Assembly (NCBI GenBank): GCA_020354625.1 | Contig: CP070651.1 | Coordinates: 804,680 to 868,679 of the forward strand | DNA: 64,000 nucleotides | Direction of reading: 5' to 3' | DNA from: Trueperaceae bacterium | GTDB taxonomy: Bacteria; Deinococcota; Deinococci; Deinococcales; Trueperaceae | Shown here: positions 44,235 through 64,000 of the stretch, in pieces | Layout of the letters: every line of letters starts with the position of its first letter | Numbering within the stretch: position 1 is the stretch's first letter | The notes under the pieces: generated by a model | Database searches by the model: none | What the model was told of the DNA's origin: nothing | Seen by the model: only the letters and a program-made list of their open reading frames with translations | Position numbers and translations under genes: made by a program

Positions 44235-45920
44235 CTACGTGGAAGACCCTTCTTCTTCAGATGGTTCCGATGTGTTTTCTGAAGGTGTCTCGATCGTGAT
44301 GGTGAGGGTCTCTTCACCTCTGATCGGAAAGGGGAAACTGATCCGGTCGAGACGCTCGGTCTCTCCTTCGATCGTCATTTCGATGGTCAACTGACTGGCC
44401 TGAACGCGATCGCGAAGCGCAGCAAGAAGTTCTCCGTACGATAGGATGGGATCGGGTTCGCCCCCCGTTTCGTCTTCTTCTGAAGGTTGTTTGCCGCCAA
44501 AAAAAGTGATGGTGGCTTCGCCGTGAAAATCTTCTGGCAACGCGACGTCTAGGGTTTCGATAACGGCATCTTTGCGATAGGGTTGGAGGCGGACGAAGGC
44601 AGTAAGCATCTCGCCCGGTTGTAAGGTGGTGGTTTCGGCTACGACCTCTTGGATTTTGGCAAAGTTTTGTCGGTCACGGTAATTGATCGTGATGGCCACG
44701 CGCTCGATGGCAGCCTCTTGGAACACGTTTTCCGCTAAGATCTCAAGGGGTATGGCAGCCAGATGCGCAGAGGCGGCAGCGATGTCTTCAGAATCGGTAA
44801 CTTGCTCGATGAGTCGAACGACTTCGCTATTGGCCAGCGTGATCTCCCACACTACTTCGCCGCTTCCAGCCGACACTTTTTGCAGCGCCTCATCGAAAAT
44901 CTGGAGTATGCCGACTTCGATGAGGGGAGCGTAGTACCTTTCGTCCCGTGTGACTTCAAATTGTCTTACAGTTCGTTTTCCAAGGCCGGTCAGGCTCACC
45001 GTTACGCTAAAAAAGTTCGGATCCTCGCCCAGCTTTCCTCTGATAGCGGTTGGCCGGTCTTCGGTGATGCTCCCTAAAACCTGCTGTCCGCTGTTGGCTA
45101 ACTTGAAGGGGACTACATCACTAGGAACGATGTACGAAACGAAAGCGGGGGCCAGTGCGAAAGAAACCGTTCCCTGACCGAGCAAGGGGTGCCCGAAGGC
45201 AAGGATATGCTCGTCTTCGAGAGCAGTCACCGTGCCGATGGCAGCGACGGTAACATCCCCTCGCACGAGTTGAACGCTTATCGCACTGCCTGGCTCCATC
45301 GTAAAGTCAGTCTCAAAACCCGGTGGAAAGACGCCGTTGGCCTGGATGGGTAGGAGTTGTACCGGGCTTTCTCGAAATACATTTGTCAGTGTCTTGCTAC
45401 TACGCGTACTTACACCAGAGAGTAGCAGGGGTGTGCTAACCGGTTGTGGAGAGGGTAGGCCTAGAAAATGCTCCGCGCCGAAAGGGCTCCACGCTTCGGT
45501 GTCGAGTGCATCACCTCTCATGACACCGATCGGGGTGACAAGTGCTAGGCGATGGTCGCTACTGGGAAAAACGAAACCGATCGCTCCCAATAAAGCGTCT
45601 CCGCCCTCTGCAATGGGGAGATATACGGGACTTCCACTCATACCGGCGGCCACTCCACCCGATCGCTCGATAAAATCACCACCGGCCTTGACGAGCACTA
45701 GAGGAAACCCGGCTCCTGTGTCGAACTGGAGCCCGAGCACCTCGATCGGAAATCGTTCGAGCTCGTTACCCATGCCGGCGGTGACTGCGTATCCGTTGAG
45801 GCCAGGGGACAAATTCGAAAGAGGGAAGTCGACTTGCGCAGTTACAGTACCTACCATTAGCAAGAGGCAGAGGCCGCTGAGGATTTGCATGGCGTTGATG
45901 TGAAGCCGTGAGATTGTCAC
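44235..45920 (-). CDS. SpoIVB-like peptidase (S55) family protein
   Basis: The frame is open to 45965. I choose the GTG at 45920 because it clears the mreB stop and gives a normal signal peptide with basic residues before LSGLCLLLMVGTVTAQ; an ATG at 45890 is the alternative. The exported protein of about 561 residues has the S55 core: a beta-rich N-terminal half, the nucleophile Ser in GVAAGMSGSPVYLPI near 91, and EDEHILAFGHPLLGQG near 245. SpoIVB is a PDZ-containing signalling serine protease of sporulation. Homologues in non-sporulating bacteria have unknown substrates. The C-terminal 200 residues are beta-rich and of unknown type. It is 10 nt downstream of mreB. Confidence 0.8.
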   Translation of the reverse strand: MTISRLHINAMQILSGLCLLLMVGTVTAQVDFPLSNLSPGLNGYAVTAGMGNELERFPIEVLGLQFDTGAGFPLVLVKAGGDFIERSGGVAAGMSGSPVYLPIAEGGDALLGAIGFVFPSSDHRLALVTPIGVMRGDALDTEAWSPFGAEHFLGLPSPQPVSTPLLLSGVSTRSSKTLTNVFRESPVQLLPIQANGVFPPGFETDFTMEPGSAISVQLVRGDVTVAAIGTVTALEDEHILAFGHPLLGQGTVSFALAPAFVSYIVPSDVVPFKLANSGQQVLGSITEDRPTAIRGKLGEDPNFFSVTVSLTGLGKRTVRQFEVTRDERYYAPLIEVGILQIFDEALQKVSAGSGEVVWEITLANSEVVRLIEQVTDSEDIAAASAHLAAIPLEILAENVFQEAAIERVAITINYRDRQNFAKIQEVVAETTTLQPGEMLTAFVRLQPYRKDAVIETLDVALPEDFHGEATITFFGGKQPSEEDETGGEPDPILSYGELLAALRDRVQASQLTIEMTIEGETERLDRISFPFPIRGEETLTITIETPSENTSEPSEEEGSST

Positions 45921-45930
45921 TCGACTGTGC

Positions 45931-46971
45931 CTAACGACGCAGGAACGTATCGGAGATGAGTGCATCTTGCAGCACGTGAATCATATCTAAAGCTTGGCCC
46001 GTTCCGAGTGCAACGCAATCTCTGGCATTATCGGCCACGACAACGGGTATGCCCGTTGTCTGTCTCAAGAGCTCATCGAAATTTCGTAAGAGAGATCCGC
46101 CACCCGTCATTATGATGCCGCGATCGATTACATCCGATACCAGTTCAGGGGGGGCTAGCTCGAGCACCCGGCGTACGCCATCTGCGATTTTTTGAATCGG
46201 CTCTTTGAGCGCCTCGACCGTGTCTTCCGTGGTGACCTTGATGGTTTTGGGTAGGCCGTTGATGAGATCGCGTCCGCGCACCTCTAGTTCATGGATATCG
46301 TTCGGCCTCGTGATCATAGCGGCACCCACTTTCATCTTGACCTCTTCAGCCGTACGATCGCCAATCAGTAGATTTTCTTTATGTCGCGTATGGCGGATGA
46401 TCGCTTCGTCGAACTCGTTTCCGGCGATGCGCAACGATTCCGAAACAACGATACCGCCTAAGCTGATGATGGCAATGTCGGTTGTCCCCCCACCGATGTC
46501 GACGATCATCGAGCCAGTAGGTTCGGCTATATTGACTCCAGCCCCAACCGCTGCTGCCAAAGGTTCCTCGATCAAGAAAGCCTTGCGAGCCCCCACCTCT
46601 CGGGTAGCTTGTAGTACTGCCCGTCTCTCCACCTCGGTCACGCCTGAGGGTACGCAAACCATAATGTGCGGTTTGAATAATCTTCCGGGGCCGGTGATGA
46701 CCTTCCGGACGAAGGCTTTCAACATCTTTTCCGTCAGCTCATAATCGGCGATCACGCCATCGCGCATAGGGCGCACGGCCACGATGTTACCTGGTGTGCG
46801 CCCGAGCATGCGATAGGCTTCATCTCCAACCGCTTTGACTTCGCTCGTGTCGCGTACCATAGCGATGACGGAGGGCTCGCGCAACATAATGCCTTGACCC
46901 TTGACGTAGATGAGAACCGTAGCCGTTCCAAGATCCACGCCGATCTCTTGCCAGAGTTTCCACCTAAACAT
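45931..46971 (-). CDS. mreB: Rod-shape determining protein MreB
   Basis: MreB is the bacterial actin that organises side-wall synthesis. The 346-residue protein shows the actin-fold motifs: phosphate 1 GVDLGTATVLIYVKGQGI at 12-29, phosphate 2 MIVDIGGGTTDIAIISLGG near 158, and the adenosine motif GIIMTGGGSLLRNFDELL near 288. The AEEVKMKVGAA segment is also typical. A GGAG ribosome site precedes the ATG. mreC, mreD and rodA are not adjacent. Instead an S55 peptidase gene follows within 10 nt (if the GTG start is right), a pairing I do not recognise from model organisms. Confidence 0.97.
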   Translation of the reverse strand: MFRWKLWQEIGVDLGTATVLIYVKGQGIMLREPSVIAMVRDTSEVKAVGDEAYRMLGRTPGNIVAVRPMRDGVIADYELTEKMLKAFVRKVITGPGRLFKPHIMVCVPSGVTEVERRAVLQATREVGARKAFLIEEPLAAAVGAGVNIAEPTGSMIVDIGGGTTDIAIISLGGIVVSESLRIAGNEFDEAIIRHTRHKENLLIGDRTAEEVKMKVGAAMITRPNDIHELEVRGRDLINGLPKTIKVTTEDTVEALKEPIQKIADGVRRVLELAPPELVSDVIDRGIIMTGGGSLLRNFDELLRQTTGIPVVVADNARDCVALGTGQALDMIHVLQDALISDTFLRR

Positions 46972-48018: not shown

Positions 48019-48432
48019 TCAAGGAGCTAAACCCCTATGAACCAGTGCACGGCGTGTATCGTCAGATAGGATCAGTTCGATATGCATCGCCTCTGGAAAC
48101 TCGGTAAGTAGAGCCGTTCCCCACTCGACCACCACCAGTCGGGCTCGTTCGAGATAGTCTTCTAGTCCGAGCCCGAGTAATGCCTCGAGGTCGGGCAGTC
48201 TGTAGGCATCGATGTGTACGAGGGGACCGGAGAGTGTCGGGTATTCGTGGACGAGCGTATAGGTTGGACTGCTCACTTGTGCGGTGGAGCCGAGTTCGAG
48301 AGCTAACTGTTGCGTAAGGGTCGTCTTTCCAGCGCCAAGGGGTCCGCTCAGAATGAGAAGAGTTCCCGGTGCTGCTTGTATGACAACCTGCCGGGCTAGT
48401 TCGCGTGTGGCCTCAAGTGACGGCAGTTCCAC
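48019..48432 (-). CDS. tsaE: tRNA threonylcarbamoyladenosine ATPase TsaE
   Basis: TsaE is the P-loop ATPase of the TsaBDE complex for t6A37. The 137-residue protein shows LSGPLGAGKTTLTQQLA near 28-44, SSPTYTLVHEYP near 56, HIDAYRL near 73, and VVEWGTAL near 98. Its ATG lies 20 nt inside the end of the 934-residue coiled-coil gene, so it is cotranscribed with the Roadblock cassette. Whether this link is functional or simply due to gene packing is unknown. Confidence 0.95.
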   Translation of the reverse strand: MELPSLEATRELARQVVIQAAPGTLLILSGPLGAGKTTLTQQLALELGSTAQVSSPTYTLVHEYPTLSGPLVHIDAYRLPDLEALLGLGLEDYLERARLVVVEWGTALLTEFPEAMHIELILSDDTRRALVHRGLAP

Positions 48433-51217
48433 TTAGTTGGGCTGCAACCGGGCCGAGATCATGACGTGTTTTGTGTAGGATCGTATTGAGCATCGAAGGC
48501 ATGTCGAGAACGATAAGGAGCTTGTGCTCCGGTGTTGGCCAGGCTGCGACCAGGCAGTGGGTTGGCATCTCGATTGCTAGCAGGTTGAGTGATCCGAGTG
48601 ACAGTTGTTCGCCCAAGTTCGACACGCGAGCTTCGTAGGCTTCTAGAGCAGGGTGGAATTGTTCGAGTGGGGGACTCAAGCGACCTGCAAGGATCTTGCC
48701 TTCGGTAGAGATGACTACGGCATCCCGTACTCCCTGCTCATCAAAGTAACTTTCGACTAGTCTGGTGAGTGGTGTTGACGAAGGTGGCTCATCATCCAAA
48801 ACCCGACCTATTTCTAATGAATCATCTCTCTCGCCAAAACTCCGTGGGGCCTCTCCAGTAGAGTCGGTGGGCGAAAAAAGACCGAGCACATCATCGATCA
48901 CATTGTCGTTGACGAGGCGGTCGGCAATCGCTCTTGTTGCCTCGAGGTGTTTATTGAGTTTTGTGATGAGCGCTTCCGCATCGGAGAGTGAGTCAACGAG
49001 CTGAACCTTGAGTTTGGTTGAGATGCGGTCCAAGGCAGTCCTTTGCGAATCGAGATGGTGCAAGATGCGGCGCGCGGACTCGACTTCGTCACTGTTAAGC
49101 TTCTCTACACCCTTGAAAGACTCGAGCGCGCTGTCGAGCCTTGGTTCGAAGTTGACAAGGCGCTCTTCAGCAGTTGTACGAAGCGATTCGAGCAGCAACC
49201 AAGCCTCATCGAGATTACGAGCTATTTCGCCACGGTCGATGGCTGCGCTGATTGACGCTAGTAGCTCGTTGAGCTGGGCATTGGTTTCGGCATCGACACC
49301 GGATAACTGACCAGCTTCTCGTTCCAATTGGTGGAGTTCGGCTATCTGTTCAGCACGCCTAAAATCGTTTGCACGGTGGAATCGCGTTTCGAGAGCCTTG
49401 AGATCGGGGTACACGCCCTGCTCTAGATTCTCGCCAGCCTGGTGTATCTGAAGGAGAAGATCTTTGTCACTACGTTCGGCTGCCTTGCTGGCAAGGAGGC
49501 CGAGTCGATTACGAACCACGCTGTTGGCCTCGAGCTTTAGTGAGCGGACCTCGTCGTTAATATGTTGCAGTTTTGCAGTATCGATGTTGGTGCTCGCTGT
49601 AGCGTTGAGCGTATTTTCAAGATCCTCTCTTGCCGTCGCCAAGCGATCAGCAAGTTCCTCTATGACAGGAAGGTTGGAGAGTTGGGCCAGCAGACTGCGA
49701 ATTTGAGCATGTGTCCGTTCGGTTTGATCATCGCTCTGTTGTGCGATGGCAGCTTCGAATTTCTCTTCTGCCAATCTCAGGTTGCTAACGAGCGTGGAGG
49801 CGATTTCCTGTCTCTGCTGAGCATCCTTGAGAGCGGTAACGTGGTCTGCGAGCGCGGTGTATTCGTGGTTTGCGAGGTCGGTATCCTGATAGCGTAGTAG
49901 AGTCGATTCCAATCGAGTGAGAACCTCTGCCTGTTCTTCGAGGCTCGCTGCACGAGAACTCTCTGCTTCAACCTGTTGCCGCTCGCGCACTTCAGCATAC
50001 TCTTTGGCAAGTCTGTGTAAGTGGCGAATGTGTTGGACATCGCTCTGGCTCGGAAGCGTTGTAGAGAGAATTCCTTGTGCCACCTGCAAAACCTGTTGCA
50101 GCTCACTGGTGTCGATGGCTTCTGGTAGTGTCTTGATGTCTTTACTGATCTGCTCAAGTTCGTTGATCAGAGCGGTCTGTTGTTGCTCTGAGGCATTTTG
50201 AAGCTCCTCGGTGAGTGTTTCTAAAGCGCTGCTGATCGAGACATCTCGATCCAGTTCGTTTCGGAGCTCATCCAGTCTCTCTCTGAGGTTAGGGAGGAGT
50301 GTCAGTAAGTTGGCGTTCTCTTGCTCCAAGACATCGAGATTTCTACGTTCGTTTTCGATGTCGAGCAGGCGTAAGCGAGCGTTGACCTCGGTAGTGGCTT
50401 CGGGGGTTTCGGAAGTTGCAACCTCACGTTGTTCTTCTTCTGAAGTGACCAATGAAGGGTCTGTGTCTAGACCTTCTTGCCCCACCTCACCGTCATCGGG
50501 TTGAGAACTGGCTTCCACTTCCACTTGTTTTCGCAGGTCTCTGCCGATCTTCCGAGCGCGCTCCATCTCGGCAGCCACCAACTGTCTGTTCTCCTGTGCC
50601 GATCGTACGTGATTGATGAGGTTTTCCAGACGCTTGACTTTGGGGATCCCGCTGTCGCGCACCTCCTCGAGTGTGGCTTCGAGGTCAGCGAGCTCACGCG
50701 CCTGGATTACGAGTTGGTCCTCGAGCTTTTCTTCAACGATTGCCAGCTGATTTTTCGCGTCTCTGACTAGCTGTGGGGTTTCATGGCCAGCCTCTTGTTC
50801 ATCTCTCAACAGTTGTATCTGAGCACGCAATTTTTGTACTTCTGGCCATTCGAAGTAGAGGTTAAAAGGTTTGAGAGATGCGTCGAGCTCGTCGAGGGTG
50901 ATCCTCTGAGCGCGCAGCGTTTCACTTTCTAGCTCTATAGCTGGTGCTTGTACTCCATTCCCTTGTGCTCTCGTCCCCTCTTCCTTTAATCGCTCAAGGA
51001 TCTCGATAATTTTTTGTTTGGCCTCGGTGACAGGCATCGTCACTTGGAGTTTATGGTAGAACTTCTGCTTGAGAATCTTTTCTAGTTCCTCGTACCGGGC
51101 ATCTTCAGCTGACCGGCCGAGTTGACGAAGTCCTTCTCTAAGGGTACGCGAGACAATCCGCGGAGAGAGCAGCGCTTCGAGTTCAACAACTATTGCCTGG
51201 TAGATTGGATTCGTCAT
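48413..51217 (-). CDS. Giant coiled-coil protein with C-terminal Roadblock/LC7-like domain
   Basis: The 934-residue soluble protein has three parts. Residues 1-80 form a small helical domain (LSPRIVSRTLREGLRQLG onward) resembling the N-terminus of the 356-residue protein of the same cluster. Residues about 85-790 are almost all charged heptad-like helix with many Glu, Gln, Leu and Arg, predicted as long coiled coil broken near 240-280 by an acidic Ser/Thr-rich linker. Residues about 810-934 (LTRLVESYFDEQGVRDAVVI, TEGKILAG) read as a Roadblock/LC7 fold. Roadblock proteins such as MglB regulate small GTPases, but none is encoded here. A scaffold or filament-like role is inferred. Confidence 0.75.
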   Translation of the reverse strand: MTNPIYQAIVVELEALLSPRIVSRTLREGLRQLGRSAEDARYEELEKILKQKFYHKLQVTMPVTEAKQKIIEILERLKEEGTRAQGNGVQAPAIELESETLRAQRITLDELDASLKPFNLYFEWPEVQKLRAQIQLLRDEQEAGHETPQLVRDAKNQLAIVEEKLEDQLVIQARELADLEATLEEVRDSGIPKVKRLENLINHVRSAQENRQLVAAEMERARKIGRDLRKQVEVEASSQPDDGEVGQEGLDTDPSLVTSEEEQREVATSETPEATTEVNARLRLLDIENERRNLDVLEQENANLLTLLPNLRERLDELRNELDRDVSISSALETLTEELQNASEQQQTALINELEQISKDIKTLPEAIDTSELQQVLQVAQGILSTTLPSQSDVQHIRHLHRLAKEYAEVRERQQVEAESSRAASLEEQAEVLTRLESTLLRYQDTDLANHEYTALADHVTALKDAQQRQEIASTLVSNLRLAEEKFEAAIAQQSDDQTERTHAQIRSLLAQLSNLPVIEELADRLATAREDLENTLNATASTNIDTAKLQHINDEVRSLKLEANSVVRNRLGLLASKAAERSDKDLLLQIHQAGENLEQGVYPDLKALETRFHRANDFRRAEQIAELHQLEREAGQLSGVDAETNAQLNELLASISAAIDRGEIARNLDEAWLLLESLRTTAEERLVNFEPRLDSALESFKGVEKLNSDEVESARRILHHLDSQRTALDRISTKLKVQLVDSLSDAEALITKLNKHLEATRAIADRLVNDNVIDDVLGLFSPTDSTGEAPRSFGERDDSLEIGRVLDDEPPSSTPLTRLVESYFDEQGVRDAVVISTEGKILAGRLSPPLEQFHPALEAYEARVSNLGEQLSLGSLNLLAIEMPTHCLVAAWPTPEHKLLIVLDMPSMLNTILHKTRHDLGPVAAQLSGTAVT

Positions 51218-51293
51218 GCTTCTCCTAAAAAACCGAGGCGATCTGCTTGCTATCTATCCACAATGCCATGACATACCCCATTGTCACGCTACG

Positions 51294-53273
51294 TTAGAGC
51301 TCCTCGTCCCAGTCGACCAGTGTGCTGTCTCCGATATCGGAAGCGGTAGCAGTGGTTTGGGCCTGTGTTGCTACTGTTCTATCCACAGTCGTGCTGCCGG
51401 TCTTTGCAGTGCCGAGCAGTCCGAATTGCACGCAGATCCCATAGAGCCCAGCTGTGGCAAAGCCTATCGCTGCGGCGGTGATCACTGCCCAAATGATTTG
51501 TGAGAGCGTGTTTTGGAAAATCGAAAAGCTTGCCAAGATTTCAAAACTCTCTATCCCTGACAAGTTGGCGATCAAGCTACCGATAAAGCCGAGGCTTTCA
51601 AAGATAAGCGGTACCAGGAGTAAGAAGATGGCGATGCCGATCAGTTGCCAGTTCCGATTCCCTCCCCCAAACGCCAGATTGAGCAGGTAGATAGGGAAGA
51701 AGGCCAATAGACCGAGGATGATGATAACGCAAAGGCGTACAAAACCGGTCCAGAACAAGCTGGTACTGACAATTGTTTTGTCGATCATGCTAATCTGCTG
51801 GCTCTGCAGTGTGGCTTCGATCGATTCGACGTGACCGGTAAGCAGAACAGCGTCTTGCATCCGCAGGGCCAATGCACTTTGCATTGCGTTGATGAGTCTA
51901 CTCGTTGTCTGGTCGAATTGAGTGTCGCGGATTCGGATCAATGGAGAGAGGAAGGACTGATAGGTGGCACGAAACTCTCGTATATGCCTCTTCGCTACCG
52001 TTTGTTGTCCGTTCTCAATAGCGGCAACCGTACGAGCTGCATGATTATAGAGTCGATCGACAGCCTGTTCGATTGTTGCAAGGCCGTTGGCCGTATAGCT
52101 GGCCGACAAGGTGTTCCTAGCGTTCTCGGGAAGGCCAAAACGAGCAAGCTCAGCTGTAATCTGGCTCGTTTCGATCGATGGTTCAGGAGCGGTAGCAGCA
52201 GCATCTGTGTTCGTCTGATTTGTGACTGACTCTGTCGTGATCTCACGATCGCTTTCGGCAACCTGCAGGCTCGGTTCAGCCCCTTGTTGGTCTGTGGTAG
52301 CGACAGGTTCAGTGATCTCGGAAGACGTTGAGATCGGTGCTTGTGTTTCGGTACTGCTTTCTACTACCGCGTTGGAGGTGTCTTGGGTCTGTTGGGGAGC
52401 CGCTATGGGAGTCGCTTCTACGACTGTGTTTTCAGCTGCTGTTGTCGCTTCGGCGGTAGCTGTGTTGGTCGTAAGGACTTCCTGAGTGTTCTGATCCGTC
52501 CCTACGTTTTGCTGAGTGGTAGAAGCCAATTGCGATACACTCTCGTCGAGGCTTTGCAGTTGGGTACTGAGCGTTTCCGCGTTTTCGTTGACGAGTGCCT
52601 GAATGGTTTCGATGAAAACCGCGTTGAGGTTGGGGTTGACTCGTGGCGAGTCTTGAATGAGAAGAGAGAGACCATAACTGCTTGCCAGAACCTGGTAGGC
52701 GCCGGCTTTGTCTTCTGATACCTGCTCACCAACGGTCACCAACTGTTGTCGAATGATACCGGCAACGCCTTGTTCGAATAGGAGGCGCATCTGCTCGAAT
52801 GGGAGCTCTTTTTCGATCTCTGCGATGATATCCTCGTGCAAATTGATGTCCGCTGCTAGAAATCTGAGGCGCTGTTTTGGTAACTGCGTATTGCCCTCGG
52901 CAGCACCTTGTAGAATCGCCTCGAAGACAAGGCGCTGAAACCCACCTTTCAGAACCGCAACTTGGACAGCTAGATCTGTCTGACTCTGGTTTTGAATGGC
53001 GGTGCGCGCTCGTTCGAATACGCGCTCCATCTCTGTTACGAGGGCGTTGCTGTTGACATTTCGAGAGAGGGTTCTAAGGGCGTTGAAGGCCCGATCGATT
53101 TCCTCTCGTGCTTGGGCGATATCTGTGGATGATGCGGTTACGCTAACATTCAAGTTCTCAATTGCTAGTTTGTATCGTTGTAGGAAATCGTCACGCTCCT
53201 GTGCCGTACCGTTACCTAAGAACACCCCAAAGAGCAAGAGACTGACGATGACCTGATGAAAACCCCACTTCAT
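51294..53273 (-). CDS. Membrane protein with long periplasmic arm and three C-terminal helices
   Basis: The 659-residue protein has a signal peptide (GFHQVIVSLLLFGVFLGNGTAQ) and two helical outer segments (about 26-270 and 395-500). They are separated by a low-complexity stretch (about 270-390) rich in Thr, Ala, Glu, Gln and Ser. Three membrane helices lie near 505-535 (LCVIIILGLLAFFPIYLL), 540-570 and 590-617. A cytoplasmic tail of about 40 residues ends VDWDEEL. The start overlaps the stop of the Roadblock gene (ATGA) and the coiled-coil gene follows after 76 nt. I know no family for it. It could link the periplasm to the cytoplasmic Roadblock proteins (inference). Confidence 0.72.
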   Translation of the reverse strand: MKWGFHQVIVSLLLFGVFLGNGTAQERDDFLQRYKLAIENLNVSVTASSTDIAQAREEIDRAFNALRTLSRNVNSNALVTEMERVFERARTAIQNQSQTDLAVQVAVLKGGFQRLVFEAILQGAAEGNTQLPKQRLRFLAADINLHEDIIAEIEKELPFEQMRLLFEQGVAGIIRQQLVTVGEQVSEDKAGAYQVLASSYGLSLLIQDSPRVNPNLNAVFIETIQALVNENAETLSTQLQSLDESVSQLASTTQQNVGTDQNTQEVLTTNTATAEATTAAENTVVEATPIAAPQQTQDTSNAVVESSTETQAPISTSSEITEPVATTDQQGAEPSLQVAESDREITTESVTNQTNTDAAATAPEPSIETSQITAELARFGLPENARNTLSASYTANGLATIEQAVDRLYNHAARTVAAIENGQQTVAKRHIREFRATYQSFLSPLIRIRDTQFDQTTSRLINAMQSALALRMQDAVLLTGHVESIEATLQSQQISMIDKTIVSTSLFWTGFVRLCVIIILGLLAFFPIYLLNLAFGGGNRNWQLIGIAIFLLLVPLIFESLGFIGSLIANLSGIESFEILASFSIFQNTLSQIIWAVITAAAIGFATAGLYGICVQFGLLGTAKTGSTTVDRTVATQAQTTATASDIGDSTLVDWDEEL

Positions 53274-54340
53274 AGTTCCTCCTTGAGCGATGTAAGCCCC
53301 GTAAAGACAGCACCCAAGTTGAGCTCTGGAGTGCCAACGATAAAGATCGTGTCGTTTCCTAGCGGAAAGAGGAAAAGTTGGCCTTGGGTGTGAGCTAGAT
53401 AGTACGAGTTTGGCCGTCCACTTTTTCCACTTATTCTCAGCCCTAGTAACCCCAATCGTGAAAGCGTTGATAGATCGACCCCGGTTCCCCTCGAAACAGC
53501 AATATCACCGTTAAATCGGACGGCAGCTACCAACTTGGTGTGGTCGATTTGTGCGAAATGCAGAACTGCTTGTTCCAGTTGTTGTTCGGAGTGGCCGGCA
53601 CGATCTGGCTTGGGTGCTATCCGGACGGTTGTTTCGAGCGATTCTGGAATGGGATTTGGGGATGTGTTGCTCTCTGAGATAGGAGTGTCGACTTTTGCTA
53701 TCGCCTCGGTGAGTTCTTCTTCGATATCATCGTCTTCCTCAGGAGGCGCAATCTGTACTCCCCCGCCACTTTGGGATTCCGTTTCTAAATCGGTTGTTTC
53801 ACTATTTGCTGCATCAACCTCGGTGATCTCGGAATTTTCGCTCATCGTATCATCGAGTACGACCAAGGTATTGATATCGACCTCACTCTTGGTAAATCTC
53901 TCCTCTGTGAGAGGTGCTTCGGCTGTTGGAGAGGGATTACTTTCTATGACACCGTTTCCAGAAGTTTGCTTACCGACTTCGTGTCGGGTTCTCGGCGATC
54001 CTTCCTCTTCTTCCAATTCAAAAGAGGCTCCTTCTCTCCGAAAGGAAAAGGATGCCCCACTCGACTCTCGGCCAGACAGGTCGTATGGACTGCCGTTGAC
54101 CTGAGTTTTTAGATCAGATACGAGTTCGCGCAGGTTTCTTTTGAGGCCTTCGCGGGGAAGGATGCTTTCGAGATCGCGAAGGATCGGGCCGAGCAGCATA
54201 TCACTCATCTGTTCAGAGTCGACCGTTTCAGAGGAGTGACCAGAAGATCGTAGAGCATCGTCTAAGACGCGTGATGCTGCCCGAGAAGAGACCATGTTCG
54301 CCAGACCGGCGTGAGTGTGTAGATACACCTCATTTGGCAT
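53270..54340 (-). CDS. Roadblock/LC7-like protein with acidic linker
   Basis: The 356-residue protein opens with a helical domain at about 14-80 (VSSRAASRVLDDALRSSG, then LRDLESILPREGLKRNLREL) similar to the N-terminus of the 934-residue protein. A disordered, acidic linker of about 150 residues follows (for example PPEEDDDIEEELTEAI). The last 110 residues (LEQAVLHFAQIDHTKLVAAV, SYYLAHTQGQLFLFPLGN) read as a Roadblock/longin-type alpha/beta fold. There is no signal or membrane segment. It is the first gene of the cassette, with an AAGG ribosome site. No MglA-like GTPase is adjacent. Confidence 0.7.
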   Translation of the reverse strand: MPNEVYLHTHAGLANMVSSRAASRVLDDALRSSGHSSETVDSEQMSDMLLGPILRDLESILPREGLKRNLRELVSDLKTQVNGSPYDLSGRESSGASFSFRREGASFELEEEEGSPRTRHEVGKQTSGNGVIESNPSPTAEAPLTEERFTKSEVDINTLVVLDDTMSENSEITEVDAANSETTDLETESQSGGGVQIAPPEEDDDIEEELTEAIAKVDTPISESNTSPNPIPESLETTVRIAPKPDRAGHSEQQLEQAVLHFAQIDHTKLVAAVRFNGDIAVSRGTGVDLSTLSRLGLLGLRISGKSGRPNSYYLAHTQGQLFLFPLGNDTIFIVGTPELNLGAVFTGLTSLKEEL

Positions 54341-58458: not shown

Positions 58459-59967
58459 TTATCGAGAAGGTACATTCGATTCTGGAATGACGATGATAAC
58501 TGCTCTCTCCTCAGGTACGTTAAGGCTGACGATATCCGAACGGCGGTTCTGAAACTCTCCTTGTATCAGCCAGGTACCTGGCACATCGAAGACGATCTTC
58601 ATCGGTGCTGAACCGAGAACGGTACCCGGACGGAACTCTGATTCGTTGGGGCTTTCCACAACATAGACATTGATTGGGGGAAGGTTAGCAGGTTCGACTT
58701 GTACATCGATTACATAGGCCACGGATTGTTCAACTTGTGGAGGAGAGTTTAGCCTAGGGACGAGCAGGAGTGAGAGAGACGCCAGGCCTGTTACGACCAA
58801 GAGTAGGGAAGCCAGAATGAGCACACGACGTGTCCGTCGAGGTTGGCCCTCTTTGACCTTCGGTTTCTTTGGGAGGATGGTAGTGCTTTGCACACGTTCA
58901 TCGATTTCGCCGGCACGGTAGGTAGCCCCCGGCGGTAGATTCTTTACAAAGCCTTCCTCGTCCTCTTTGGGTGCACGCTCCCGGCGTATCTGCGGCTCAG
59001 TTCGATGCGATACATCTACGGGTCGTTCCTCTCTTTGCTGTGCAACACCGGGGTCGGTATTGAGCGTGAGCGCTTCGGCATCGCTGTTTATACGATCATT
59101 CGCCTTCACGACCGGACGTTGGATACTCACACTCTCGGCAGGGGAGAAAGTCGATTTAGGAGCAGCCCTCCTACCACCTAGGTCGATCTCTACGTTGAAG
59201 TCATCCTTGGTGATTTGTGAAAGAGAGGTGTCCACCAAGCCTTTCGTTTCGAGAGGTTCGGTAGGGCTGCTTTTAGGGTCATCGAGTACCAGATCGAGAA
59301 GTTGTGCTGAAGAGGCAGGAGCGGGGTGCAACGGCCGTGATGTGTTCCGACTTCCTGCTTGTAGCTTAGAAATGGCGTCGTGCAGCTCATCAACGGTCGG
59401 TCGCCGGGTTGCATCCTTCCCCAGGCAGTTTGTAAGTAGTTCCGTCAGGTCTTCGGACAAGTGTTGGTTGAGTAGGATAAGCAACGATTTTGCGAGCGAA
59501 TACAAATCAGCAGCGTAGGAAGCGCTGCCTCGGTATTCCGGTGCCAAGAAGGTTCTGTCGGTCGGTTCCCACGGAATACCGTAGCCTTCTATGAGTAGGT
59601 GTCTTTTCGATTGGAGAAAGCGTCGAGGGTTGATATCACCGTGTAAGACGCCGGCACGGGATGCGTCGCGGAGTGTGTCTACCGCAGCGAGTACTACTTC
59701 GAGGGCATCGGTTTTCTGATCCGCAACAAACGGTTTGTAGTCGTCTGAAAAGGCGACGACCACCTGTCCGGCTTTACCATCAAAACTGGTCTCCAAGACT
59801 CCAGGAATATTGCTCGACTCGAAGGTTTCTGTGCTGGATTGAGGTACGCTGGGAAATTGATAGATCAGAACCGGTAGCCCAGTCAAGGGATCGCGACCAT
59901 GATATGTCGTAACATCTCCCTGCTCTAGATAGATCTCTTTGGTTTGATAACGGGAACTCCGGGTCAT
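58459..59967 (-). CDS. Membrane-anchored pseudokinase with C-terminal PEGA-like domain
   Basis: The 502-residue protein has a protein-kinase-like fold at about 1-215. The VAIK lysine is missing (LPVLIYQF at 31-38), HRDLKPxN reads HGDINPRRF (109-117), so the catalytic Lys and the metal-binding Asn are lost. DFG is replaced by IEGYG (126-130). The APE motif survives (LAPEYRG) and the C-lobe is intact (SLAKSLLILLNQH). Residues 215-390 form a disordered linker. One membrane helix (LILASLLLVVTGLASLSLLL, about 395-415) leads to about 85 outward residues resembling a PEGA/beta-sandwich domain (INVYVVE, PGTWLIQGEFQNR). It probably transmits signals by binding, not phosphorylation (inference). Confidence 0.78.
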   Translation of the reverse strand: MTRSSRYQTKEIYLEQGDVTTYHGRDPLTGLPVLIYQFPSVPQSSTETFESSNIPGVLETSFDGKAGQVVVAFSDDYKPFVADQKTDALEVVLAAVDTLRDASRAGVLHGDINPRRFLQSKRHLLIEGYGIPWEPTDRTFLAPEYRGSASYAADLYSLAKSLLILLNQHLSEDLTELLTNCLGKDATRRPTVDELHDAISKLQAGSRNTSRPLHPAPASSAQLLDLVLDDPKSSPTEPLETKGLVDTSLSQITKDDFNVEIDLGGRRAAPKSTFSPAESVSIQRPVVKANDRINSDAEALTLNTDPGVAQQREERPVDVSHRTEPQIRRERAPKEDEEGFVKNLPPGATYRAGEIDERVQSTTILPKKPKVKEGQPRRTRRVLILASLLLVVTGLASLSLLLVPRLNSPPQVEQSVAYVIDVQVEPANLPPINVYVVESPNESEFRPGTVLGSAPMKIVFDVPGTWLIQGEFQNRRSDIVSLNVPEERAVIIVIPESNVPSR

Positions 59968-61457: not shown

Positions 61458-64000
61458 ATGAAGCCTGGTGGGCTGGTGTGGGAATTGGCCAAACAGTACG
61501 ATCCTTCTACGGTCGAGGTCAAGTGGACAAAGAGGTGGGCTCAAGAGCCCTTTGTTGCCGATCCCTCTTCTTCCAAAGAGCCATTTTGCATTGTTATTCC
61601 ACCCCCGAACGTTACAGGCAATCTACATTTGGGTCACGCCTTTGACAATGCGATCATCGATACCCTGATCCGCTTCAAGCGTATGCAAGGTTATGAGACG
61701 CTCTTTCAACCAGGCACTGACCATGCAGGGATATCCACGCAAGTTCAGGTAGAAAGGTCGTTGCAGGAACAGGGGCGAAGCAAGCACGATCTGGGACGCA
61801 GGACTTTCCTCAAAGAGATGTGGGCCTGGAAAGAGAAGTATGGAGGTATCATCCTCGAGCAGCTTCAGCGACTCGGCATATCTGCGGATTGGTCTCGCAC
61901 CCGATTTACCATGGATGAGGGACTTTCTCGGGCTGTTCGCAAGCAATTTGTGGAGCTTTATCATCGAGGATTTGTCTATCGTGGTGAGCGTATCGTCAAT
62001 TGGGATCCTTCGAGCCAGACGACTCTTTCGGATCTAGAGGTGGATAGGGAAGAACGCCCCGGCCACCTCTACACTTTGGCATACCAGCTAGAACAAGGTG
62101 GTCACATCGCGATCGCCACGGTGCGGCCTGAGACGATCTTCGCTGACCAAGCGATCGCTGTTCATCCAGACGATGAACGTTATCGTTCTTCGGTTGGTAA
62201 AAGGGCTCGCATCCCCCTAACTGATCGCTGGATCCCAGTGATAACGGACGAGGCGGTCGATCGGGAGTTCGGTACTGGGGCCCTCAAGATTACGCCAGCA
62301 CACGACCCCCTCGACTTTGAAATCGGAGAGCGTCACCAACTCGAGCGTCCTAGCGTGATCGACCTCGATGCGAGATTATTTGGAGAACTGGTCCCGACTT
62401 CATATAGAGGCCTGGACCGTTTTGAGGCGCGTGAAGCGGTTGTTACAGCGCTTAAGGCTGAGGCGAGCTTGTTGGAGGTGCGAGACCATACGGTCGCACT
62501 AGGTCTTTCGCAGCGTACGAAGGAACCGGTCGAGCCTATGTTGTCCCTTCAGTGGTTTTACAATACCGATGCTATCGCAGGGCGTGTACTCGACGTTCTC
62601 GACCGGGGTGAGATCGAACTCTTCCCTCAGCGCTATGCGAAGGTGAATCGTGATTGGTTGTCAAACTTGCGCCACTGGAATATCTCAAGACAACTCTGGT
62701 GGGGACATCAGATCCCGGCATGGTACGACGAAGAAGGGCGTGTTTTCGTCCCCGAGCCCGAAAACCCGGAGCTGGATCCTCCCGACGACCCACGTTACCG
62801 CGATTTGAAACTCGTGCAGGACGAAGATGTGTTCGATACTTGGTTTAGTAGCAACTTGTGGCCTTTCAGCACGCTGGGATGGCCCGATACCGATGACCCC
62901 TTCTACAAAAAGTTCTATCCCACGAGTGTGCTGGTCACGGGTTACGACATCCTCTTCTTTTGGGTGGCGCGTATGGAGATGGCAGGGCTCGAGTTCACAG
63001 GGGAACGGCCGTTCGATCACGTGTTGCTTCACGGTCTCGTGCTCGATGCAGAGGGTCAGAAGATGTCGAAATCGAAGGGTAATGGGATTGATCCCCTCGA
63101 TGTCATAAGCGAATATGGTGCAGATGCGTTGCGCTTTGCAACGACCTATGCCAGTACCGGTGGTCAAGATGTGCGTTGGGACAGCCGTCGCGTCGAGATG
63201 GGACGGAATTTCAACAACAAGCTGTGGAATGCTGCGCGTTTTGTGCTTATGAACCTCGTAGGTGAGATGGAGAGTGGATTGCCCGAGACGTTGGCCGATC
63301 GTTGGATGATGAGTGCACTCCAACGTGCTATCAACGACATTACCACTCACCTCGAAGCGTACGATCTCGGGTTGGCCAACCGCCGGATTTACGACTTTGT
63401 ATGGTCGGAATTTTGTGACTGGTATCTTGAGGCTGTCAAACCCGCTTTGCGTATGGAGAACCCACGTACTCGATATCTTCTCAAAGATGGGTTTACAAGC
63501 ATCTTGGCTCTGCTTCACCCGCTGATCCCCTTTATCTCCTCGGAGCTCTACCAAGCGTTGGGATACGAAGAACAACTTGCGACGGCAACGTGGCCAATGG
63601 TCGATGAAGAGCTGATCGATGAGGTTGCGGAGCAACAGTTTGAGATCCTGAAGGAGGCTGTCGTTACGGTACGTAATTTGCGCAGCGAAGCCAACCTCGC
63701 TCCGTCGAGGAAGATCGGCATCTATGTTGAGGGGCCGTCCGAAGCTGTCATACAAGAAAACCGGTCGGTGTTTGAGAGTTTGGCGAGGGCGGAGTTGCTT
63801 CCGGCCTCACCTACAGGTGCTATTTTGTCCCAACACTTGCCAGAGTTGGAGATCCGTTTGCCGCTAGAGGGGCTTATCGATGTCGAGGAGTGGCGTGCTC
63901 GGCAGCAAAAGCGGTTGAGGGATCTCGAGTCGAACAGGATGCGAAGCGAAAAGAAACTCGCCAACGACAAGTTTGTTCTGAACGCACCACCAGAAGTCGT
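61458..64000 (+). CDS. valS: Valyl-tRNA synthetase, C-terminus cut by window edge
   Basis: The frame is open from an ATG at 61458, preceded by AAGGAGGAAAG, to the right edge, so 847 residues are visible and the stop lies outside. Class I signatures are IPPPNVTGNLHLGHAF near 50 (HIGH equivalent) and GQKMSKSKGNGIDPLDVI near 533 (KMSKS). The editing domain is present (AIATVRPETIFADQAIAVHP near 215), followed by WNISRQLWWGHQIPAWYDEE near 410. The anticodon-binding domain and the start of the C-terminal coiled-coil arm (WRARQQKRLRDLE) follow. No T-box leader is seen. Identity is secure. Confidence 0.97.
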   Translation, partial: MKPGGLVWELAKQYDPSTVEVKWTKRWAQEPFVADPSSSKEPFCIVIPPPNVTGNLHLGHAFDNAIIDTLIRFKRMQGYETLFQPGTDHAGISTQVQVERSLQEQGRSKHDLGRRTFLKEMWAWKEKYGGIILEQLQRLGISADWSRTRFTMDEGLSRAVRKQFVELYHRGFVYRGERIVNWDPSSQTTLSDLEVDREERPGHLYTLAYQLEQGGHIAIATVRPETIFADQAIAVHPDDERYRSSVGKRARIPLTDRWIPVITDEAVDREFGTGALKITPAHDPLDFEIGERHQLERPSVIDLDARLFGELVPTSYRGLDRFEAREAVVTALKAEASLLEVRDHTVALGLSQRTKEPVEPMLSLQWFYNTDAIAGRVLDVLDRGEIELFPQRYAKVNRDWLSNLRHWNISRQLWWGHQIPAWYDEEGRVFVPEPENPELDPPDDPRYRDLKLVQDEDVFDTWFSSNLWPFSTLGWPDTDDPFYKKFYPTSVLVTGYDILFFWVARMEMAGLEFTGERPFDHVLLHGLVLDAEGQKMSKSKGNGIDPLDVISEYGADALRFATTYASTGGQDVRWDSRRVEMGRNFNNKLWNAARFVLMNLVGEMESGLPETLADRWMMSALQRAINDITTHLEAYDLGLANRRIYDFVWSEFCDWYLEAVKPALRMENPRTRYLLKDGFTSILALLHPLIPFISSELYQALGYEEQLATATWPMVDEELIDEVAEQQFEILKEAVVTVRNLRSEANLAPSRKIGIYVEGPSEAVIQENRSVFESLARAELLPASPTGAILSQHLPELEIRLPLEGLIDVEEWRARQQKRLRDLESNRMRSEKKLANDKFVLNAPPEV

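Follow-up and report, generated by a model that had tools for sequence, protein, structure and literature searches.

A Deinococcota gene cassette encoding two Roadblock proteins and a three-TM protein, and its possible link between MglA and the type IV pilus machine

Three adjacent genes, here called A, B and C, form a cassette that is ancestral in Deinococci and whose members are linked across the class. Two of the products, the cytoplasmic-type proteins A and C, are paralogues that each end in a Roadblock domain. The third, B, is secreted and then anchored by three TM helices; its periplasmic arm is jointed, and it bears near-invariant motifs on what is predicted to be its cytoplasmic side. 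The pattern of natural gene losses suggests that the cassette connects MglA with the machine of the type IV pilus (T4P). A plausible reading, which we place just short of an even chance, is that A, B and C constitute one inner-membrane complex through which MglA, a Ras-like polarity switch, is coupled to the T4P machine in Deinococcota. The cassette was found in a 64,000-nucleotide stretch of a Trueperaceae genome (GCA_020354625.1, CP070651.1, positions 804,680 to 868,679; hereafter the window), which is assembled as a single contig (C1) of 4.29 Mb.

The cassette and its three proteins

All three open reading frames are real and are transcribed from the minus strand in the order A, B, C (Table 1). 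A and B overlap by four bases (53270-53273), 76 bases separate the end of B from the start of C, and the end of C shares 20 bases with the tsaE-like gene. On the upstream side are moaE, an hrcA-like gene and guaA, and on the downstream side the tsaE-like gene, tsaB, mreB and an S55-like peptidase gene. In a scan for promoters and terminators, matches were no more frequent than in shuffled sequences.

Table 1. Features of the cassette and its flank, in window coordinates
Feature	Position	Strand	Description	Basis
Gene A	53270..54340	-	356 aa; N-domain of helices, acidic disordered linker, Roadblock domain at the C-terminus	
A N-domain	54086..54340	-	residues 1-85; five helices, common to A and C	
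A Roadblock domain	53273..53593	-	residues about 250-356	
Gene B	51294..53273	-	659 aa; signal peptide followed by two helical periplasmic domains, three TM helices and a short tail, predicted cytoplasmic	
B signal peptide	53199..53273	-	about residues 1-25	by eye
B periplasmic helical domain 1	52500..53195	-	residues 27-258; holds VQDSPR motif	AlphaFold
B linker	52182..52499	-	residues 259-364; disordered, Thr/Ser/Gln-rich	AlphaFold
B periplasmic helical domain 2	51774..52181	-	residues 365-500	AlphaFold
B three-TM region	51426..51752	-	residues about 508-616	
B FGGGNRNW loop	51648..51671	-	residues 535-542; TM1-TM2, predicted cytoplasmic	
B QFGL motif	51417..51428	-	residues 616-619; after TM3, predicted cytoplasmic	
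B C-terminal WDEEL peptide	51297..51311	-	residues 655-659; WDEEF in most homologues	
Gene C	48413..51217	-	934 aa; N-domain, then a conserved helical segment, a long Leu/Glu-rich middle that is probably helical, and a Roadblock domain at the C-terminus	
C N-domain	50963..51217	-	residues 1-85; paralogous to A N-domain	
C most conserved segment	50513..50872	-	residues 116-235; FNLYFEWPEVQ motif	
C Roadblock domain	48437..48781	-	residues about 813-927	profile comparison
tsaE-like gene	48019..48432	-	flanking gene, retained where the cassette is lost	

Other genes of the window deserve brief mention. The S55-like gene (44235-45965, minus strand) has a weak SpoIVB/S55 peptidase match, below the Pfam cut-off, and overlaps mreB by 35 bases; this adjacency is conserved across Trueperaceae, to our knowledge not a group known for spores. 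In a kinase-like protein (58459-59967, minus strand), only the end of a Pkinase domain is recognisable, with low-complexity sequence and then a TM helix behind it; the protein resembles a kinase that has degenerated or diverged, and its gene adjoins guaA in several relatives. An open reading frame of 356 residues (62685-63755, minus strand) has no Pfam match.

An earlier note on this DNA, made from the sequence alone, had proposed Roadblock-like domains at the C-termini of A and C, and both proposals are confirmed. When A was folded by AlphaFold with nine homologues, two confident domains were obtained, one of five helices (residues 4-82) and a C-domain (residues 252-355), joined by about 160 disordered residues. 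The C-domain (pLDDT about 85-90) has the order alpha-beta-beta-alpha-beta-beta-beta-alpha of the Roadblock/LC7 fold. A Foldseek search of the PDB with A returned 104 matches at E<=0.001, the best 50 of which are all Roadblock, MglB or Ragulator chains, led by 7yh1 (9e-7), a structure that the sequence profile of A also reaches (E 0.004). The top PDB match of the A profile, mS35, was rejected as spurious, its alignment lying mostly over the disordered linker.

For C, the evidence comes from profile comparison with decoy controls. Against a profile built from 37 Deinococcota Roadblock domains, hhalign gave C a probability of 95.2 (P 2.8e-8) and A 97%, versus at most 0.9% for decoy windows of A, B and C outside the proposed Roadblock regions. 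Pfam yields no Roadblock match for A and C of the window itself, both falling below threshold; in a blind PF03259 search of 41 genomes, a C homologue in G020 rose above the curated cut-off (23.2 bits, the same whole protein scoring 17.1 bits in hmmscan) and an A homologue in G036 fell just below it (21.4 bits). Searches of Pfam and NCBIfam with A, B, C and their homologues otherwise yielded nothing usable, and weak matches to GUN4_N, LegC2/C7 and SMC were discarded as coiled-coil noise.

The resemblance of A to C extends beyond the Roadblock domains, which match each other at 93% in hhalign: the N-domains align over 85 residues, and each finds the other in profile searches. Because both domains correspond, A and C are paralogues of one two-domain design, to which C adds a long Leu/Glu-rich and probably helical insert. 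The shared N-domain is a novel helical domain, for which a profile search of the PDB found no solved relative. A second, diverged C-type paralogue of 791 aa occurs in one genome (G029, L165:6147-8522, minus strand) without adjoining A or B. Small stand-alone Roadblock proteins (137 and 130 aa) are encoded in tandem at L116:3043-3841 (C1:3705100-3705800 in the window's own genome), apart from mglBA, and one of them is matched by the C profile at 28 bits.

The signal peptide, Thr/Ser/Gln-rich linker and three C-terminal helices that the earlier note had read in B were likewise recovered from sequence and AlphaFold, which models helical domain 1 (residues 29-258), a disordered linker, helical domain 2 (residues 367-500), three TM helices and a disordered tail. 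Since B combines a signal peptide with an odd number of TM helices, its tail is predicted to lie in the cytoplasm. Invariant or nearly invariant in homologues are VQDSPR in domain 1 (IQDSPR in this window), the FGGxNxxW loop, QFGL after TM3 and the final W-D-E-E-F/L. A profile search of the PDB with B found nothing, and Foldseek returned no match at E<0.1; because the best matches were only designed helical bundles (E>=0.14), the fold of B is considered to be without a solved relative.

Distribution and gene losses in Deinococcota

Among 111 Deinococcota genomes, apparently without members of the genus Deinococcus, B is present in 107, C in 104 and A-type matches in 100, a count that can include the N-domains of C. 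The search beyond the phylum covered close relatives of C. Both presence profiles and gene order indicate that the three genes travel together: the A-B-C order is retained in four of five families, and in most genomes of the fifth (Thermus/Meiothermus-like) A and B are still paired and C has been relocated, two genera of this family retaining all three together. By eye, no mgl or pil genes were seen among the neighbours of relocated C or of A-B in the Thermus/Meiothermus-like genomes, and in the genomes inspected A, B and C are not adjacent to such genes.

The earlier statement that no MglA-like GTPase is encoded nearby holds for the window only, since a whole-genome search located MglA beside MglB. 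In the window's own genome, mglA (C1:1728452-1729039) overlaps an MglB-like Roadblock gene by one base, and mglA relatives are 68-89% identical. Neither A nor C shows the coupling to mglA expected of MglB; the coupled Roadblock gene lies at C1:1729213.

In the 85 genomes of good quality (completeness of 90% or more, contamination of 5% or less), C and MglA are missing from the same five (G002, G003, G006, G018 and G024), a shared absence with P=3e-8 as a raw figure that ignores relatedness. At the syntenic locus of G002, G003 and G024, the flanking genes are joined without A-B-C, leaving a clean empty site, and in G006 only B is left of the cassette; guaA, hrcA, tsaE, tsaB, mreB and the S55-like gene are retained where the cassette is lost. 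These are therefore true losses rather than gaps. The three genomes without B also lack pilM, their sole PilM_2 matches being of FtsA strength. Mapped onto an rpoB tree, these absences correspond to two loss events each for MglA, C, B and PilM and three for A; both independent losses of MglA are accompanied by loss of A and C, and both losses of PilM by loss of B. With two independent loss events per link, a phylogeny-aware sign test cannot reach significance.

The weight of the proposed link to MglA and pili lies in the pattern within the losses rather than in the raw probability. In the clade of G110, G006 and G018, PilM and B are kept, MglA, A and C are lost, and B is without the loop motif, QFGL and the tail peptide. 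G109, which belongs to the genus of G006, has MglA, A, B and C, with all three motifs near consensus. In G013 and G021, A is lost and C and MglA are kept; there B keeps a WDEDF tail and is without the loop, QFGL and also periplasmic domain 2. From these two patterns, the tail is assigned to C and the loop with QFGL to A, as a prediction. The retention of MglA in G013 and G021 means that A is not strictly tied to it.

Exceptions to the co-absence of B and PilM (G002, G003 and G024, two events) occur in fragmented genomes. G069 has C and PilM and is missing B, and in G033, G036 and G097 B is present with PilM undetected or matched only at FtsA strength; these cases are read as gaps. Some incomplete genomes disagree on the presence of C and MglA, and these disagreements are likewise read as assembly gaps.

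Possible role and competing explanations

In the proposed complex, B would anchor the Roadblock pair of A and C at the inner membrane, and its arm may contact the pilus machine or the envelope. The WDEEF peptide of B would dock C, the FGGxNxxW loop and QFGL would dock A, and the Roadblock domains of A and C may pair. By analogy with MglB or MglC, these domains could offer a surface to MglA or its regulators, and the state of MglA would then set where or whether pili act; a role like that of MglC, which is a Roadblock paralogue of MglB and links partners without acting as the GAP, is proposed for A and C by analogy. The earlier suggestion that the soluble pair docks on the cytoplasmic face of B is rendered plausible by motif conservation and correlated motif loss. 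The fuller picture, a Deinococcota-wide, membrane-anchored Roadblock complex not described before, in which a trans-envelope protein with two separate docking sites for the paralogue pair would let MglA act directly on the T4P machine over a wide periplasm, is put forward more tentatively than the complex as such. In Thermus thermophilus, pili are reportedly still made upon deletion of mglA or mglB and their localisation is altered (PMC12024867), and the mechanism of Thermus polarity has been called unclear (PMC12393216); no Thermus counterpart joining the MglA switch to the T4P machine was found in the polarity literature cited here.

The complex might instead be an independent scaffold or sensor, its match with MglA and pili reflecting lineage-wide loss of motility and surface functions. 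The losses are indeed few, some of them in small genomes (G024, 1.8 Mb; G003, 2.1 Mb), mgl and pil neighbours are absent, and G013 and G021 lost A without losing MglA. However, wholesale reduction does not readily account for the G110/G006/G018 clade, which keeps pilM and B and loses exactly MglA, A, C and the motifs of B, or for the retention of the flanking genes at the emptied locus, and we regard this explanation as rather unlikely, albeit a serious one. Far less credit is given to an envelope or cell-shape scaffold tied to MreB, which the earlier note had raised from the proximity of mreB. Although mreB lies downstream of the cassette in most Trueperaceae-type loci, it was not seen beside the cassette in the other families, tsaE-tsaB-mreB stay in place where A-B-C has been excised, and MreB is encoded in 111 of 111 genomes, including all those without the cassette. 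Given this ubiquity and an adjacency limited to one family, the MreB link has been dropped. A second MreB paralogue of 336 aa, about 67% identical to that of the window, is encoded in the same genome (L169:251-1261, minus strand; C1:1763265) and in many relatives; a recurrent internal TAG in MreB paralogues proved to be just the ordinary stop codon, lying inside the aligned end. It is just as improbable that B is a channel or transporter regulated by A and C. The topology of B, with three TM helices, a short cytoplasmic loop between TM1 and TM2 and an arm in the periplasm, resembles that of MscS/MscK-type channels, the sole point in favour; yet B lacks a cytoplasmic beta domain, a Pfam match and any Foldseek match below E 0.1 to solved structures, and MscS is absent from the Foldseek matches listed.

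If coupling of MglA to the T4P machine through A-B-C is correct, Roadblock/MglA systems would gain a trans-envelope anchor. The cassette is in any case an unannotated core component that is nearly universal in the phylum; its gene set and a short peptide motif are defined, and the series of natural losses indicates which of its parts goes with which partner. The control of pilus polarity by MglA outside Myxococcus thereby becomes open to direct test in Thermus thermophilus, a harmless laboratory species that is genetically tractable.

Comparison with known systems

Among envelope proteins of the Thermus type, PilW of the T4P machine is thought to bridge the periplasm (PMC13039148), and B resembles it in kind. 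PilW has 292 aa and is encoded between pilO and pilQ, whereas B has a length of about 550-660 aa and, in the complete genome G077, is separated from pilM by about 330 kb; given these differences in length and locus, identity of B with PilW was dropped.

We know of no three-TM trans-envelope anchor in the polarity module of Myxococcus xanthus (MglA/MglB/MglC-RomR/RomX), in which, as in genomes with the cassette, Roadblock proteins occur together with an MglA GTPase. The Roadblock proteins MglB and MglC are small and have neither the N-domain of A and C nor a long coiled-coil-like arm, and A matches MglB at the level of fold only (15-16% identity). The likeness would lie in the docking of a C-terminal helical segment of a partner, RomR, onto the Roadblock protein MglC (PMC10329633), and in an output that includes the choice of pole for T4P, on which MglA-GTP acts through SgmX (PMC7519303).

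A further parallel is offered by the eukaryotic Ragulator (LAMTOR). B, with three TM helices and a periplasmic arm, is unlike LAMTOR1, and the pairing of A with C is at present a prediction. In both cases, however, paired Roadblock proteins would be held by a membrane anchor protein in the service of Ras-like GTPases, and A matches Ragulator subunits by fold in Foldseek.
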